From the NCBI GenBank assembly GCA_024278595.1, contig JAJRSW010000012.1:1-64000 (forward strand): 64,000 bases of DNA, written 5' to 3'. The stretch is from Fidelibacterota bacterium (GTDB lineage: Bacteria; Fidelibacterota; UBA8477; JABMPR01). A program made the translations under genes and the position numbers. The notes under the pieces are model-generated. The model saw only the letters and a program-made list of their open reading frames with translations. It made no database searches and was not told the DNA's origin. Each line of letters starts with the position of its first letter. Positions within the stretch are counted from its first letter, which is position 1. Below, one piece after another: positions 14,709-22,200 of this stretch.

Positions 14709-16079
14709 TTAATTCAACTTTAACATATCCTGACCCATTTCATCATATTGATGCAATTTATTGCGCAGTGTTCTCACACTGATCCCCAGCAGATCAGCAG
14801 CCTGTGTTCGATTATTCGTGGTTCGTTTTAAGGCATTGTGGATCATTTGCTTTTCCATCTCGGCAATGGTAGTGACGGCTTTGATGGAGCTTGCATCATC
14901 AGCTTTCAACACCTCTGCCTCCAGATTAAAATGCTCCATGGCGATCCGTTCTTCATCCCCTGAATACAATACCGCCCGCTCTATTATATTTTCAAGCTGA
15001 CGAACATTCCCAGGCCAATCTTCTCTGGAAATGGATTTAAGGGTCTCAGCCGATAACTCTTTATGCTCGAAACGGTACTTGATCTTAAACTTTGAAATAA
15101 AATGCTCAATCAGCAGTGGAATATCCGTATTCCTCATACGTAATGGCGGTACTATAATGGGAAATACATTTAGTCGATAGTACAGATCTGACCGGAAATT
15201 ACCGTCTCTGATCAACTTGTCCAGATCCTGGTTTGACGTGGCGATCACTCTGACATCCACATCCAATTCCTGGGTATTCCCCACCCTGGTAATGGTTCGG
15301 TTTTGCAGGACGCGTAACAGTTTAGCCTGCATGGTGACCGGGATCTCACTAATCTCATCCAACAGGAGCGTGCCTCCGTCAGCCTCTTCAAAAAGCCCTT
15401 TGTGCATTTTGATGGCGTTGGTGAAGGAGCCTTTCTCATGACCAAAAAGAGTACTCTCAAAGAGTGATTCAGGAATTGCCGAGCAGTTAATCTTTAAAAA
15501 AGGTTTATCCGACCGATCACTGCCATCATGAATGGATTGGGCAATAAGTTCCTTACCGGTACCGCTCTCGCCCTGAATGAATACTGAGGCGTCGCTGCGG
15601 GCTACTATACTAATCTGACTAAAAACCCGCTCCATTTCAGGACTTTGGCCGATCAATTTGGTGTACTGCCTGTCATCTGAGAGTTTGCGTTTGAGGGCTT
15701 TATTTTCAGCTTTTAAATCCTGGTATTCGAAATAGCGGTTAACCCGGGATTCGATCTGCGATATCGAGAAAGGCTTGGTCACAAAATCAAAAGCTCCCTT
15801 ATGCAGGGCATCAACTGCAGTTTCCACAGTTCCGTAGGCGGTAATGATCAAAAACCCCAGGTTCTCATGAACATTCCGGGCAGCAACCATAAATTCGATC
15901 CCGGTCATTCCAGGCATCATTAGATCGGATATAACAAGGTCAAACTGGTTCTCTGAAAGCAGATCCAGGGCAGATTTTCCATCTTTTGCAATTCGAACCT
16001 TAAAGCCCGAATTGGAAAGAGTCTCATTCAGGATCGTCCTGAGACTAAGATCATCATCAACTACGAGAATATTTTTCAT
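14709..16079 (-). CDS. NtrC-type sigma-54-dependent response regulator
   Basis: The 456-residue product is a three-domain activator: receiver (1-115, phospho-site Asp52 in SDLMMPG, Lys102), AAA+ ATPase (about 140-375) and Fis-type HTH at the end (about 425-450, RTQAADLLGISVRTLRNKL). Walker A is GESGTGKE (170-177) and Walker B LLLDE (238-242). The sigma-54 contact loop reads GSFTNA (217-222) instead of GAFTGA; the key F and T remain. As the last gene of the chemotaxis-like operon next to flgB, it is a likely FlrC/FlgR-type flagellar regulator, an inference from position. Confidence 0.93.
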   Translation of the reverse strand: MKNILVVDDDLSLRTILNETLSNSGFKVRIAKDGKSALDLLSENQFDLVISDLMMPGMTGIEFMVAARNVHENLGFLIITAYGTVETAVDALHKGAFDFVTKPFSISQIESRVNRYFEYQDLKAENKALKRKLSDDRQYTKLIGQSPEMERVFSQISIVARSDASVFIQGESGTGKELIAQSIHDGSDRSDKPFLKINCSAIPESLFESTLFGHEKGSFTNAIKMHKGLFEEADGGTLLLDEISEIPVTMQAKLLRVLQNRTITRVGNTQELDVDVRVIATSNQDLDKLIRDGNFRSDLYYRLNVFPIIVPPLRMRNTDIPLLIEHFISKFKIKYRFEHKELSAETLKSISREDWPGNVRQLENIIERAVLYSGDEERIAMEHFNLEAEVLKADDASSIKAVTTIAEMEKQMIHNALKRTTNNRTQAADLLGISVRTLRNKLHQYDEMGQDMLKLN

Positions 16080-16111: not shown

Positions 16112-16684
16112 TTATTGTTTTAAACGGCCTTGTTGTTCCAGGTAGATTTTATGCGCATGAGCATGATCAACTGCCTTGCTGACCTGGGTCTGAGCTTCAG
16201 GGTTTTTCTTGGAAGCCCCAGAGATAAGTTGTTTCTTTAATAGTGCTACTTCCTGCTCAAGCTCCATTATTTTCTTGAGTTGACTATCGTTGGTCTTCTT
16301 AAGATTATCATTCCTGATCGCTCTTTCAATGGAGGTAATGACCTGTTCCACTGAAAATGGTTTGATCAGATAATCATGAATATTTTGGCGTAATCCCTTG
16401 ATAGCACTGCTGATTCCCGGGTAACCAGTCATTAATATGCTGATGATCTCGGGATAAATTTCCTTTACCATGGAATTCAGCGTGATCCCATCCTGATCAG
16501 GCAGCTGGATATCCGACAACAGGCAATCGATCTTGATGGCCTTGGCAACTCGCAGCGCCTCTGAAACGGAGAAAGCAGTGTGAACTTCATATCCGTGTTC
16601 GCTTAATCCATATTTAAAAATATCGACAATGGTCTGATCATCATCAACAAGCAGGATGGTTAACGGGCTTTGTTCTTGTGTCAT
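16112..16684 (-). CDS. Receiver-domain response regulator
   Basis: The 190-residue product has an N-terminal CheY-like receiver (about 8-125: acidic DDDQ near 15-18, phospho-Asp in LLSDIQLPDQDG, Thr in LMTGYP, Lys in LIKPF). After it comes a C-terminal helical, coiled-coil-like tail of about 60 residues with no known output domain. It lies 11 bases after the GAF/GGDEF-like gene and 32 bases before the NtrC-type gene. It could be a phosphorelay intermediate for that activator. Confidence 0.85.
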   Translation of the reverse strand: MTQEQSPLTILLVDDDQTIVDIFKYGLSEHGYEVHTAFSVSEALRVAKAIKIDCLLSDIQLPDQDGITLNSMVKEIYPEIISILMTGYPGISSAIKGLRQNIHDYLIKPFSVEQVITSIERAIRNDNLKKTNDSQLKKIMELEQEVALLKKQLISGASKKNPEAQTQVSKAVDHAHAHKIYLEQQGRLKQ

Positions 16685-16695
16685 TGTAACATCAC

Positions 16696-17394
16696 CTACT
16701 GACTGGACTTCGTTTCACCTACAGCATTAAAAAGGTTTGAGCTCAACTTGGCAATGACCTTTTTTACCGAGTCAGCATCGAATGGATAGGTTAAAATAGA
16801 ATAGGCCATACTCAAGTATGTTTTTGAACTCATCCCGCCACTCTCAAGCTCGTTACGGACATTAGCCAGGTGATGATCTAGACCCACCGGGTTTCCTCCA
16901 CCAGCCAGGATGATCAAGGTATCATAGCCAGCCCAATAAATACGTTTATCCGGTCCGAGTTGCGCCGCGATCAGATTACGCCAGTCTTCTCTCAGTAAGG
17001 CAAGATCCAGATTCTGTTCAACGGATCCGGTTGCCACCAGGCGAGTCATAGCAAGGGTTACCGGACTTTCGGAGCTATCACTCAGGTTAAGCTCAGCATT
17101 GACCAGATCCTCGATCGCCCGGGTGGGATCCAGATCATTGAGTTCCAGAATACCTCCTGAATGGATCTTGCGGGACCCAATGATAGGTGCGATCTGGGTG
17201 GCCAAGATCTTCAAGAGGGTCAACTCATCATTAAAGGGATAGACATGGTCCTGGCTTTCAAGAATTACCAGATATCCTTCCAGGCTCCCCTGATACTTGA
17301 TGGGCATGAATATGATGCGCCGGCAATCCCAGGGTAGTTCAAGATTTTTGCCATCAATATTGAGCTGTACTCCTACATTCGTCAGCACGGTCAT
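16696..17394 (-). CDS. GAF-GGDEF-like downstream half of a frameshifted regulator
   Basis: This 232-residue frame starts in the middle of a GAF domain (LNIDGKNLELPWDCRRIIFMPI, then GSLEGYLVILES, about 10-75). A region from about 110 to 225 follows with the shape of a degenerate GGDEF domain; the RxGGDEF equivalent reads YWAGYDTLIIL, so diguanylate cyclase activity is unlikely. In its own frame it stays open upstream through 17466 and reads into the end of the receiver-GAF gene at 17457-18068. One base separates the two frames. No good ribosome site precedes the ATG at 17394. I read this as the second half of a single protein. Confidence 0.7.
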   Translation of the reverse strand: MTVLTNVGVQLNIDGKNLELPWDCRRIIFMPIKYQGSLEGYLVILESQDHVYPFNDELTLLKILATQIAPIIGSRKIHSGGILELNDLDPTRAIEDLVNAELNLSDSSESPVTLAMTRLVATGSVEQNLDLALLREDWRNLIAAQLGPDKRIYWAGYDTLIILAGGGNPVGLDHHLANVRNELESGGMSSKTYLSMAYSILTYPFDADSVKKVIAKLSSNLFNAVGETKSSQ

Positions 17395-17451
17395 ATCTTC
17401 AACTGACAGGATCTGATCATTAAAGGTCGAGTCAGGTTTAAAATTAAAAAT

Positions 17452-17468
17452 CTTTTTTAATTTTTTGG
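17452..17468 (-). other. Frameshift site: A_AAA_AAT followed by TAA and a second A-run
   Basis: On the minus strand the upstream gene reads CCA AAA AAT TAA. A -1 slip on the six-A run gives CCA AAA AAA TTA AAA AAG, which then stays open for 24 codons into the downstream frame. The resulting join restores a GAF domain. It may be programmed slippage, polymerase slippage, a real mutation or an assembly indel; the sequence alone cannot decide. Confidence 0.7.
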
Positions 17469-18068
17469 ATTAACACTCATGTAGACAGCTTTGAATTCCT
17501 GGCCACCTTTTTGGCTCTCACAAATTAATGCAGAATGGATGTGCATACTCTCAGCCATGGTATCAAACAGCATTTCGACTGCGTATTTTTTCTCCCGCAC
17601 CTGATATAGAATATTGCTGATATCATAGAGCATGGTGATCTGAGAAAGCATCCGTTTATTCTCAGTATGCAGAGATTCGTTTTCACGTTGCAGGGTGAGT
17701 TTATCCAGGGCATGGGTCAATATTTTATCAATTTCGTCGAGTTTGAACGGTTTTTTAATATAATCATAAACCCCCTGTTGAACAGCATCAATGGCTGAAT
17801 CAACCGAAGCATAACCGGTGAATATAACGATTTGAGTATCAACGTCCTGTTGCCGGATCTCCTTCACCAGTTCCATACCGTTTACATGTGGCATCATCAG
17901 ATCCGTAAACACTATATCAAAAGTAGTATGTTTTAACAGTTCAAGTGCCTCAACGGGATCATTCTTGCCAGTTACCTCATAGCCTTTCTCAGAAAGAAAA
18001 TTTATCAGGATGGTCACGATCATCTCTTCATCATCAACGATCAATATTGAGATCTTATCTTTTCCCAT
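17457..18068 (-). CDS. Receiver plus partial GAF response regulator (upstream half)
   Basis: The product has a CheY-like receiver (about 8-125: VDDEE near the start, phospho-Asp in VFTDLMMPHVNG, Thr in VIFTGYASV, Lys in IKKPFKL). A helix follows, then the opening strands of a GAF domain (YAVEMLFDTMAESMHIHSAL) that end abruptly at ...SVNPKN. The stop lies within A-runs on the minus strand. The missing GAF remainder is encoded immediately downstream in the -1 frame. The ATG at 18068 has AAAGGA at good spacing; another ATG at 18074 is too close to it. Confidence 0.8.
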   Translation of the reverse strand: MGKDKISILIVDDEEMIVTILINFLSEKGYEVTGKNDPVEALELLKHTTFDIVFTDLMMPHVNGMELVKEIRQQDVDTQIVIFTGYASVDSAIDAVQQGVYDYIKKPFKLDEIDKILTHALDKLTLQRENESLHTENKRMLSQITMLYDISNILYQVREKKYAVEMLFDTMAESMHIHSALICESQKGGQEFKAVYMSVNPKN

Positions 18069-18083
18069 ACTCATTCCTTTGCC

Positions 18084-19487
18084 CTACTTTAAGGGCTCCA
18101 CAAGCATTTCATTACCCTGGCGAAAAATACTTATTCCACCTTTTATACTTGTGCTAAAATATTTTTTGTGTCCGATGGTGACTGTCACCTTAGGATGTAA
18201 TTGACTTCTGATCTTCACGGCCTGTTCAGGTGATTGACCAAGGGTATCATCGGCGAGTTCATCACACTCCTGTCGCATTAGCTCTACTTGAATTTCTGCT
18301 GCAGAGATATCCTCGCGTAGTTTTGCAATTTCCTGCTCACGTTCCTCGGAAATTGTATCCAGCCTCTGGCGCAATAGTTCAAGAAACTCTAATCGTTTTT
18401 TTAGTGAGTCCAAATATTGATATTCCTCTGCTAAACGAATCTTCCCCTGCCAGAGTTTGGACTGCTCTCCACTCATATCACTCTTCGTGAGTACCATTTC
18501 AGTGAGAATGTTCAGATCTGATCCGGCCACCAGAAGATCGATCCCTTTCTCGGCAACGGCTTTCCCGCCCCTCAATAATCCCTCATTTTCTGTTAAATGT
18601 ATTTCGCCCCCAGAGGTGATGTTTGAATTGATGGCGGAATGCCTGATGACCACATTATTTTTCACACTGGCCGTAGCGTCTTGCATAAAGCCGCATACTA
18701 AATTATCCCCCGCAAGTATCCGGGCACGGTCTCGACCTAGAATACCATTATCAATTACAATGCTGCCATTTTTGGAATAAATCTCAGCAGCCTCAACGGT
18801 CCCCTTAATAAATATTGAATCAGTGGCTTCTACGCGAAATCCTGACCGTACATCACCATCGATCATCACCGTACCCTGATATTTCACATTACCCGTGCTG
18901 AAATCTACATCACCGTTAATATGAAATACGTTATCGACCACAATCTTGTCACCCTTGAGGATGGCTACGCCATCGATGGCAGCATACAGGGTCAGACCAT
19001 CTTCAGAGAGAATCGTATTCTTACCAGCTGGAAGGACCAGTGGCTCATAATTCGAGGGTCCCTCGATCACCTGCCCCTTAACGGTAGTGGCTGGTTTACC
19101 AGACATTCCGGGAACCAGAGATACGAGTTGATCTCCTTTTTTTACCGCTTCAAATTGATTCAATCTCTTAAAATCTGCTTTTCCATCCACACTTATCTTG
19201 GGACGATATTTAGCGGAAATATCTACTTTCCAGATCAGTTCATCTGGTTTTGGGTCACTGCCGACCAGGCCTTCAGCGATAGGCAGTTCGTGCACCTTTT
19301 TTCTATCCGCTACCAGCCTTTTCAGCAAACCGGTATTAATTCCCACGCCAATGCCGGCTTCCTTCAGGGCTGATTCGATAACTGTCTGGCTTGGAAACTC
19401 ATCGACGTGAGCACTGATGGATAGTAGAGCTGTCATCTCATCGGATGAGATGTGGATGGTTATTCTATCTGTTCTAAATACAGTCAT
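18084..19487 (-). CDS. DUF342/FapA family protein
   Basis: This is a FapA (DUF342) protein of about 467 residues. It has an N-terminal alpha/beta region, then a middle VSGKPATTVKGQVI-like FapA signature (here GMSGKPATTVKGQ). A long right-handed beta-helix of hexad repeats follows (about 190-330, for example NVKYQGTVMIDGDVRSGFRVEATDSIFIKG), and a C-terminal coiled coil (about 360-420). The family is linked to polar growth, flagellar number or surface signalling in other bacteria; the biochemical role is unsettled. The frame extends to a GTG at 19547 inside the upstream gene. The ATG at 19487 avoids a 44-base overlap, but neither start has a good Shine-Dalgarno. Confidence 0.85.
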   Translation of the reverse strand: MTVFRTDRITIHISSDEMTALLSISAHVDEFPSQTVIESALKEAGIGVGINTGLLKRLVADRKKVHELPIAEGLVGSDPKPDELIWKVDISAKYRPKISVDGKADFKRLNQFEAVKKGDQLVSLVPGMSGKPATTVKGQVIEGPSNYEPLVLPAGKNTILSEDGLTLYAAIDGVAILKGDKIVVDNVFHINGDVDFSTGNVKYQGTVMIDGDVRSGFRVEATDSIFIKGTVEAAEIYSKNGSIVIDNGILGRDRARILAGDNLVCGFMQDATASVKNNVVIRHSAINSNITSGGEIHLTENEGLLRGGKAVAEKGIDLLVAGSDLNILTEMVLTKSDMSGEQSKLWQGKIRLAEEYQYLDSLKKRLEFLELLRQRLDTISEEREQEIAKLREDISAAEIQVELMRQECDELADDTLGQSPEQAVKIRSQLHPKVTVTIGHKKYFSTSIKGGISIFRQGNEMLVEPLK

Positions 19488-19503
19488 TTTATTAATTTCG
19501 ATA

Positions 19504-19767
19504 TCACTTATCTGAGTACTGGAACCTGAGTTCAGCAGTTTTTCCACAGATGCATTTATGGATCACACCCACGATCAGATCGCCCTCATAGATCGGCTGG
19601 AAGAAATCAACACCATCTTCCGAATCTTCGTCCATTGGATCAAGGTGCAGGGTTCCCTGTATATTATTGCGGGCTTTCTTGATCACACCACCCTTCTGAC
19701 GAATTTTCCGTTTCGCAAATTGATCCTTTCTTTCATCCAATTCTAAGAAATCATGTTCATCTATCAT
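19504..19767 (-). CDS. Small unknown protein of the chemotaxis operon
   Basis: I do not recognise this 87-residue acidic protein. It has a basic patch (KRKIRQKGGVIKKARNN, about 19-35), an acidic middle (DPMDEDSEDGVDFF) and ends with a CxC motif (HKCICGKTAELRF). It is tightly packed between cheZ (19 bases) and fapA, so it is probably a real operon member. A metal-binding or FapA-partner role would be guesswork. Confidence 0.65.
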   Translation of the reverse strand: MIDEHDFLELDERKDQFAKRKIRQKGGVIKKARNNIQGTLHLDPMDEDSEDGVDFFQPIYEGDLIVGVIHKCICGKTAELRFQYSDK

Positions 19768-20429: not shown

Positions 20430-20801
20430 TCATTTCAAGATGCCTTTGATCTTTTGCTTTAATACTTCAGGAGAAAATGGTTTAACCATGTACCCGTCTG
20501 CTCCAATTCTAACGGCTGCAACCACATCCTCTTGCATACCCCGGGTGGTCACAACCAGAATTGGAGTGTCTTTATACCTGGGGTTTTCCCTGAGTTTGAT
20601 GACCAACTTTTCACCATTCATCTCCGGCATGTTCCAATCTGTGATGATCAAATCGACGTCGGTATCCTTCAATTTATTCAGCGCATCGACACCGTTTTCA
20701 GCAGCAACAAGATCACTAAAGCCGATCTTTATGAGTGAGTTAGCAATAATTCGCCGCATGGTTGGCGAATCATCCACAAATAATACCTTCATATCACTCA
20801 T
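20430..20801 (-). CDS. cheY: Chemotaxis response regulator CheY
   Basis: CheY, when phosphorylated by CheA, binds the flagellar switch. This single receiver of about 123 residues has VDDSPTMRRI at the start, the phospho-site in DLIITDWNMPEMNG, Thr-Thr at VVTTRG, and Lys in MVKPFS. Possible starts are GTG 20807, ATG 20801 and ATG 20792. All overlap or abut the cheA stop at 20794, and 20801 is my choice with low certainty between the two ATGs. Confidence 0.95.
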   Translation of the reverse strand: MSDMKVLFVDDSPTMRRIIANSLIKIGFSDLVAAENGVDALNKLKDTDVDLIITDWNMPEMNGEKLVIKLRENPRYKDTPILVVTTRGMQEDVVAAVRIGADGYMVKPFSPEVLKQKIKGILK

Positions 20802-22200
20802 GAACACCCACTTTCATACTGTCAGTCAACGTGTTCCGCCTCAGGGGAAATTTGATAATAAATACGGAACCGATATTAATCTCGGATTCTATTTCAACCA
20901 GCCCACCTAATTCTGAAACATTGGTATTTACAATGTCCATCCCAACCCCACGCCCTGAGACATCGGTGATCTTTTCTGTCGTACTGAACCCGGGTCGGAA
21001 TATGAGATCGATTATTTCCTGAGGTTTCATGTTTGAGGCTTCATGGGAGCTGACAATACCTTTCTCAATACTTTTTGCAAGGATTTTTGCTGGATCGATC
21101 CCGGCACCATCATCTTTGATCAGGATCACGATCTGAGCACCCTCTTGATAAGCATCCAGACTAATAATACCCCGCGGTGATTTACCTTTCGATCTCCGAC
21201 TCTCAGTGGTTTCGATCCCATGGACGATGGCATTTCTCAGCAAATGGATCATGGGATCACCAATGGCTTTTATCACTGAGTGATCCAACTCAGTATCTTC
21301 GCCTGAGATTACCAACTCGATCGCTTTATCCATTTCCCTGGCCATATCTCGCACGATCCGCGGAAATTTCCTGAAAACAGTGGCAATGGGCACCAGACGC
21401 AGTTGCAGCACACTGTCCTGGATCGCTGTGGCCATGGGACCGAGCGAGGTGTTCAGCAAGCCCAGTTCAATAGCTGTCGGGTGCTCTGGAAGATCATTAG
21501 CAAGTCTTTGACTCAGTTGCAGCAGACGATCTTTCTCGAGGACCAGCTCATCAGCCAGGTTCATAAGCTTATCGAGTCGCTGGACTTCGACCCGAATGGT
21601 AGGAACCAGGCGCTTCTGTTCTGTTATTCTACTTGGTTTTTTTCCAGCCACACCCAGCTGTGATCTGCTCTCTGAGTGTGTAATGTCCATGACAAATTGA
21701 TCAATCAGATCTTCGGGGAAGCCTGCAGCGAATTGGGGTATGGAGAGCTTGGGTTTTACCTGAGCTGAGGTAGCTTCACTCGAGTCCAGCATGGGACGGG
21801 ATGTAGATTGTAACAGGTCAGCAATAGCATTTTTTAGAGGGGACGTATTGTATGCACCTTCAACCCGATTCCCCACATCACCCACGAACATCTTAAACCA
21901 GTCTACAGATTCCCACAGGACATCAATGATCTTTTGGTCAGGTGTCATTTCAGCATTACGAATTTTATTGAGAAGATCCTCTGAAGCATGTGCCAGGCCA
22001 GTACATTCATCAAATGAGAGAAAGCCGCTGATACCCTTGATCGTATGAAATGAACGAAAAATGCGATTGACCAGTTCGTCACTGATCTGTGTCCGCATCA
22101 GCGCAAGGTCCTGGTACAATTGTTCGATGAGCTCATTGGTCTCAATGACATATTCATCCAGAATCTCGGTCATATCTCCTAATTCACCATACATTCCCAT
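20794..22200 (-). CDS. cheA: CheA-type histidine kinase lacking the CheW-like domain
   Basis: The 468-residue product is a chemotaxis kinase. It has an N-terminal HPt domain (about 8-110, phospho-His52 in FRSFHTIKGISGF), a linker, a dimerisation region (about 205-265, RVEVQRLDKLMNLADELVLEKDRL) and a HATPase domain (about 270-455, HLLRNAIVHGIE, DDGAGIDP, GRGVGMDIV). It stops right after the catalytic domain (FPLRRN...), so the C-terminal P5 domain that binds CheW and receptors is absent. A clear CheY-docking P2 domain is also not visible. No cheW or receptor gene lies nearby. Confidence 0.93.
   Translation of the reverse strand: MGMYGELGDMTEILDEYVIETNELIEQLYQDLALMRTQISDELVNRIFRSFHTIKGISGFLSFDECTGLAHASEDLLNKIRNAEMTPDQKIIDVLWESVDWFKMFVGDVGNRVEGAYNTSPLKNAIADLLQSTSRPMLDSSEATSAQVKPKLSIPQFAAGFPEDLIDQFVMDITHSESRSQLGVAGKKPSRITEQKRLVPTIRVEVQRLDKLMNLADELVLEKDRLLQLSQRLANDLPEHPTAIELGLLNTSLGPMATAIQDSVLQLRLVPIATVFRKFPRIVRDMAREMDKAIELVISGEDTELDHSVIKAIGDPMIHLLRNAIVHGIETTESRRSKGKSPRGIISLDAYQEGAQIVILIKDDGAGIDPAKILAKSIEKGIVSSHEASNMKPQEIIDLIFRPGFSTTEKITDVSGRGVGMDIVNTNVSELGGLVEIESEINIGSVFIIKFPLRRNTLTDSMKVGVHE

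Follow-up and report, generated by a model that had tools for sequence, protein, structure and literature searches.

Response regulators with an N-terminal receiver and a C-terminal GGDEF-fold domain are represented by PleD, WspR, and DgcR. The protein described here has both of these domains in common with them, but it differs in carrying a GAF domain between the two and in having a degenerate GGDEF motif. Its gene is split between two reading frames at a run of adenines, and it can be compared with two kinds of broken genes already described. The first is tssM of Citrobacter rodentium, which is likewise broken right after an A-run; in that case, however, the run is an A11 tract and slippage was shown experimentally (PMC4256274), whereas here two A6 runs are parted by TT and the tract is unconserved. 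The second is represented by the singleton frameshift genes of the GeneTack survey, in which two adjacent ORFs match one protein elsewhere and the break is unconserved; frameshift singletons confirmed by homology are expected to be mainly sequencing errors (PMC3711429). From these the present gene differs in nothing important; the A-run in which its break happens to lie can be read as a slippery heptamer.

The window, i.e., the whole stretch of 64,000 nucleotides analyzed, comes from a metagenome-assembled genome of Candidatus Neomarinimicrobiota (3.26 Mb, 124 contigs, 94% complete), where the regulator gene is single-copy. The upstream fragment (17457-18074, minus strand; 205 aa) encodes the receiver, a coiled coil, and the first part of the GAF domain, and terminates with CCA AAA AAT TAA; in the orthologue, the same region continues in one frame. 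From 17470 to 17452, the minus strand reads ATCC, six A's (positions 17461-17466), TT, a second set of six A's, and G. The -1 frame stays open for 256 codons from 17466 as far as 16696 (minus strand), with no further stops, and encodes what remains of the GAF domain, followed by a degenerate GGDEF-fold domain; 24 codons precede its first ATG (17394), and the ORF starting from that ATG covers 16696-17394. The reading of the minus strand therefore agrees with what the earlier note had described, that is, the terminal codons, the six A's, and a -1 slip opening 24 codons that lead into the downstream frame. The frame split is genuine in the sequence as given. An all-A/T inverted repeat (17433-17462, arms AAAATTAAAAA and TTTTTAATTTT) also spans the junction and is probably a chance product of Lys, Phe, and Asn codons.

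The two ORFs are one gene, coding for a receiver, a GAF, and a degenerate GGDEF-fold domain. A single regulator of this type had been proposed from the sequence alone, and the proposal was borne out by the receiver match in the upstream ORF (PF00072, 6e-30), by weak GAF matches, by a GGDEF fold retrieved with Foldseek, and by the unbroken orthologues. The downstream ORF alone gave no Pfam match. In the intact orthologue, Pfam retrieved a weak GAF_2/GAF match at residues 215-299, which, together with the alignment of this orthologue, places the split inside the GAF domain, as had been suggested. Overall, GAF_2/GAF was matched, with weak E-values, in six out of eight aligned sequences (orthologues, distant homologues, and window fragments), and the Pfam GGDEF domain in only one of the eight, marginally (0.0083). 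A profile of the downstream half did not match any PDB sequence, the relation with GGDEF being visible only by fold comparison: the predicted structure of the C-terminal domain (model pTM 0.76) was aligned by Foldseek to the GGDEF domain of T. maritima with a best E-value of 3.7e-6 and a TM-score of about 0.7, and the full-length orthologue model resembled PleD, WspR, and DgcR. The catalytic GG(D/E)EF motif is absent, AGYDT or AGIDT being found there in the window protein and its nearest relatives; in the window protein, the motif position (judged by eye) is occupied by AGYDT. Since the motif is degenerate, diguanylate cyclase activity is not expected.

Among the 19 genomes of the genus that were compared, five harbor the regulator gene, namely the window genome and four others. 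In each of these four, the orthologue occupies a single ORF, 466-480 codons long when counted from stop to stop and free of internal stops, and is 45-69% identical over the downstream ORF; the more distant homologues read out from the phylum are likewise uninterrupted, at 450-485 codons. Neither the slippery site nor the break is conserved in any orthologue, and an A-run is present in none of the four from the same genus; the junction codons of one of them (L003) are GCC AAA AGT ATG AAA AAT, without a slippery run. Moreover, the shifted reading of the window protein aligns gaplessly to the same-genus orthologues across the junction, and the window sequence would therefore be one base short. 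We infer this missing base rather than see it directly. According to these data, we assign a probability of about 0.93 to the reading of the locus as one receiver-GAF-degenerate-GGDEF response regulator gene whose frame is broken by one base missing from the A-run. The earlier note had left the choice between programmed recoding and an indel; the unbroken relatives and the gapless alignment speak for the indel, and the lack of an A-run in the same-genus orthologues speaks against programmed recoding. An unbroken frame in close relatives had been named beforehand as the observation that would count against recoding, and the frame proved to be unbroken in every orthologue checked.

A programmed -1 ribosomal frameshift at A_AAA_AAT, with a short receiver and a longer fusion protein as its products, is suggested by the junction itself: the heptamer (17466-17460) is in phase and fits the X_XXY_YYZ pattern, as the earlier note had pointed out, the stop follows directly, and the -1 frame is open. 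Furthermore, most heptamers of this form are frameshift-prone in E. coli when a stimulator is supplied (55 out of 64 with those of IS911, 61 with the IS3 pseudoknot; PMC4066793). In the same survey, however, A-type motifs were efficient when AAG was their last codon, and AAU falls in the weaker class of heterogeneous A-site codons (PMC4066793). As for stimulators, inspection by eye did not reveal any evident SD-like element upstream, and folding of the RNA 3' of the site did not yield a convincing one downstream (z -1.27, with 16 out of 200 shuffles as good); the sole helix at the site consists entirely of A-U pairs and includes the slip site itself. The motif is also common by chance: the 54 other ORFs of the window (54.5 kb of coding sequence) harbor 70 heptamers that fit the general pattern in phase, and A_AAA_AAT itself occurs in phase six times among these intact genes. 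The heptamer at the junction is not notable. Of 13 A7+ runs in minus-strand genes of the window, eight would be left with a slippery heptamer in phase if one base were lost, which indicates that such a heptamer is a side effect of an indel within a run of this kind. Together with the absence of both the site and the split from the orthologues, these data make programmed frameshifting very improbable. They also call for caution, since one A lost from an A-run usually leaves a slippery heptamer, and its presence by itself does not speak for programmed frameshifting.

The same tract might restore the frame in some of the transcripts through slippage of the RNA polymerase, for which the A11 tract of tssM represents a precedent; the tract concerned is AAAAAATTAAAAAAG, and it is covered by the A-U inverted repeat mentioned above. 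Nevertheless, its six A's are interrupted by TT and are well under the length of roughly nine at which selection against A/T runs becomes evident in many genomes (PMC1088944), the tract is unconserved among relatives, and longer uninterrupted runs (A7+) are tolerated in the sense strand at 14 places within intact genes of the window. Transcriptional slippage is hence as improbable as its ribosomal counterpart.

A third possibility is that the gene has been split during evolution into two independently translated proteins, a receiver stub and a GAF/GGDEF protein, as the ATG at 17394 and the constraint acting on the downstream ORF might suggest. The values of dN/dS against the nearest relative are 0.13 for the GAF part and 0.11 for the C-terminal domain, the level found between two intact relatives (0.13 for the C-terminal domain, L003-L004); many other dS values were saturated and unusable. 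The downstream half thus evolves under ordinary purifying selection, and the equal level indicates no decay. However, the gene is cut within the GAF domain, no clear Shine-Dalgarno site precedes 17394, and the 24 codons that would be left untranslated score as coding and align gaplessly to the coding sequence of the relatives. A split into two proteins is therefore extremely improbable.

The lack of decay, together with the lack of further stops, implies that the break is recent, or exists in the sequence record only, or is compensated; a recent or record-only break is favored, since it is limited to one genome. A conceivable reading is a recoding confined to this species, in which slippage of the ribosome or of the RNA polymerase at the A6 tract would produce both a short receiver and a full-length receiver-GAF-GGDEF-like regulator of flagellar genes. 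With the nearest relative, the downstream protein shares only about 66-69% identity, which limits the comparison and leaves some room for a recent, species-only recoding, yet we consider it improbable. The search for copies from the same species did not retrieve any among viral contigs, and among genome contigs only other species were found.

The missing base would probably be due to a sequencing or assembly error; a real and very recent mutation, or a strain variant, is a possible cause of lower probability, and recoding of any kind is unlikely. A defect affecting homopolymers throughout the assembly was rejected: its spectrum of A/T-run lengths is normal compared with that of the relatives, and A7 runs are common and lie within intact genes, which indicates no systematic homopolymer error. 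About 35 window genes were also compared with the contigs of four relatives, and no other gene was broken likewise, the other multi-frame flags being due to receiver paralogues or to an antisense ORF. In addition, a 382 kb sample of this genome was scanned for same-strand pairs of ORFs of at least 150 aa in which over 20 bases separate the upstream stop from the downstream start. The scan retrieved only one other pair (L059:7093-9980, minus strand), without a homopolymer; its ORFs are of 773 and 193 aa, 38 bases separate the stop of the first from the start of the second, and the bridge is mildly coding-like, scoring 8.6 versus 18.6 at the present junction. With only one other pair in 382 kb, the present break is an isolated event, and breakage at homopolymers is not a general trait of the assembly.

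If the base is missing because of an error, the organism would make the ordinary protein at its full length of about 459 aa. A mutation would leave a product of 205 aa, in which the receiver is followed by only part of the GAF domain; translation of the downstream part would then probably be inefficient, because its first ATG is not preceded by a clear Shine-Dalgarno site. In the annotation, the two ORFs should be joined into a single regulator and flagged as probably frameshifted, and the matter has little importance otherwise.

The regulator is located in a flagellar and chemotaxis cluster, whose gene order is fapA, split regulator, receiver gene, NtrC-type sigma-54 activator, flgB, flgC, fliE, and fliF. 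On one side, it is flanked by the gene for a FapA-like flagellar assembly protein (18084-19547, minus strand), a conserved neighbor, and on the other by that for a response regulator of 190 aa (16112-16684, minus strand), in an order kept in all four same-genus relatives; the sigma-54 activator (14709-16079, minus strand) lies upstream of flgB, flgC, fliE, and fliF, and this order, too, is kept. Compared for fapA, the regulator, the receiver gene, the sigma-54 activator, flgB, flgC, and fliF, the arrangement matches in the four relatives that have this stretch. Position and domains suggest that the regulator likely controls flagellar genes.

The same window harbors a gene for a CheA-like kinase (20794-22200, minus strand; 468 aa) with Hpt, dimerization, and HATPase domains and without the C-terminal CheW/P5 domain; in a relative (G016), CheA is 718 aa long and has the CheW domain. 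Neither a CheW domain nor a chemoreceptor (MCP) signaling domain was found in the whole 94%-complete genome, although it does carry cheY and flagellar genes, along with a weak CheZ-like match. This may reflect either a receptor-free chemotaxis-type circuit or the presence of the receptors within the missing 6% of the genome. In the nearest relative (G001; contig C16, L026:4712-4812), no cheA lies between the HDOD gene and cheY, and CheA-like genes are found on other contigs (C103 and C116), alongside CheW and MCP genes.
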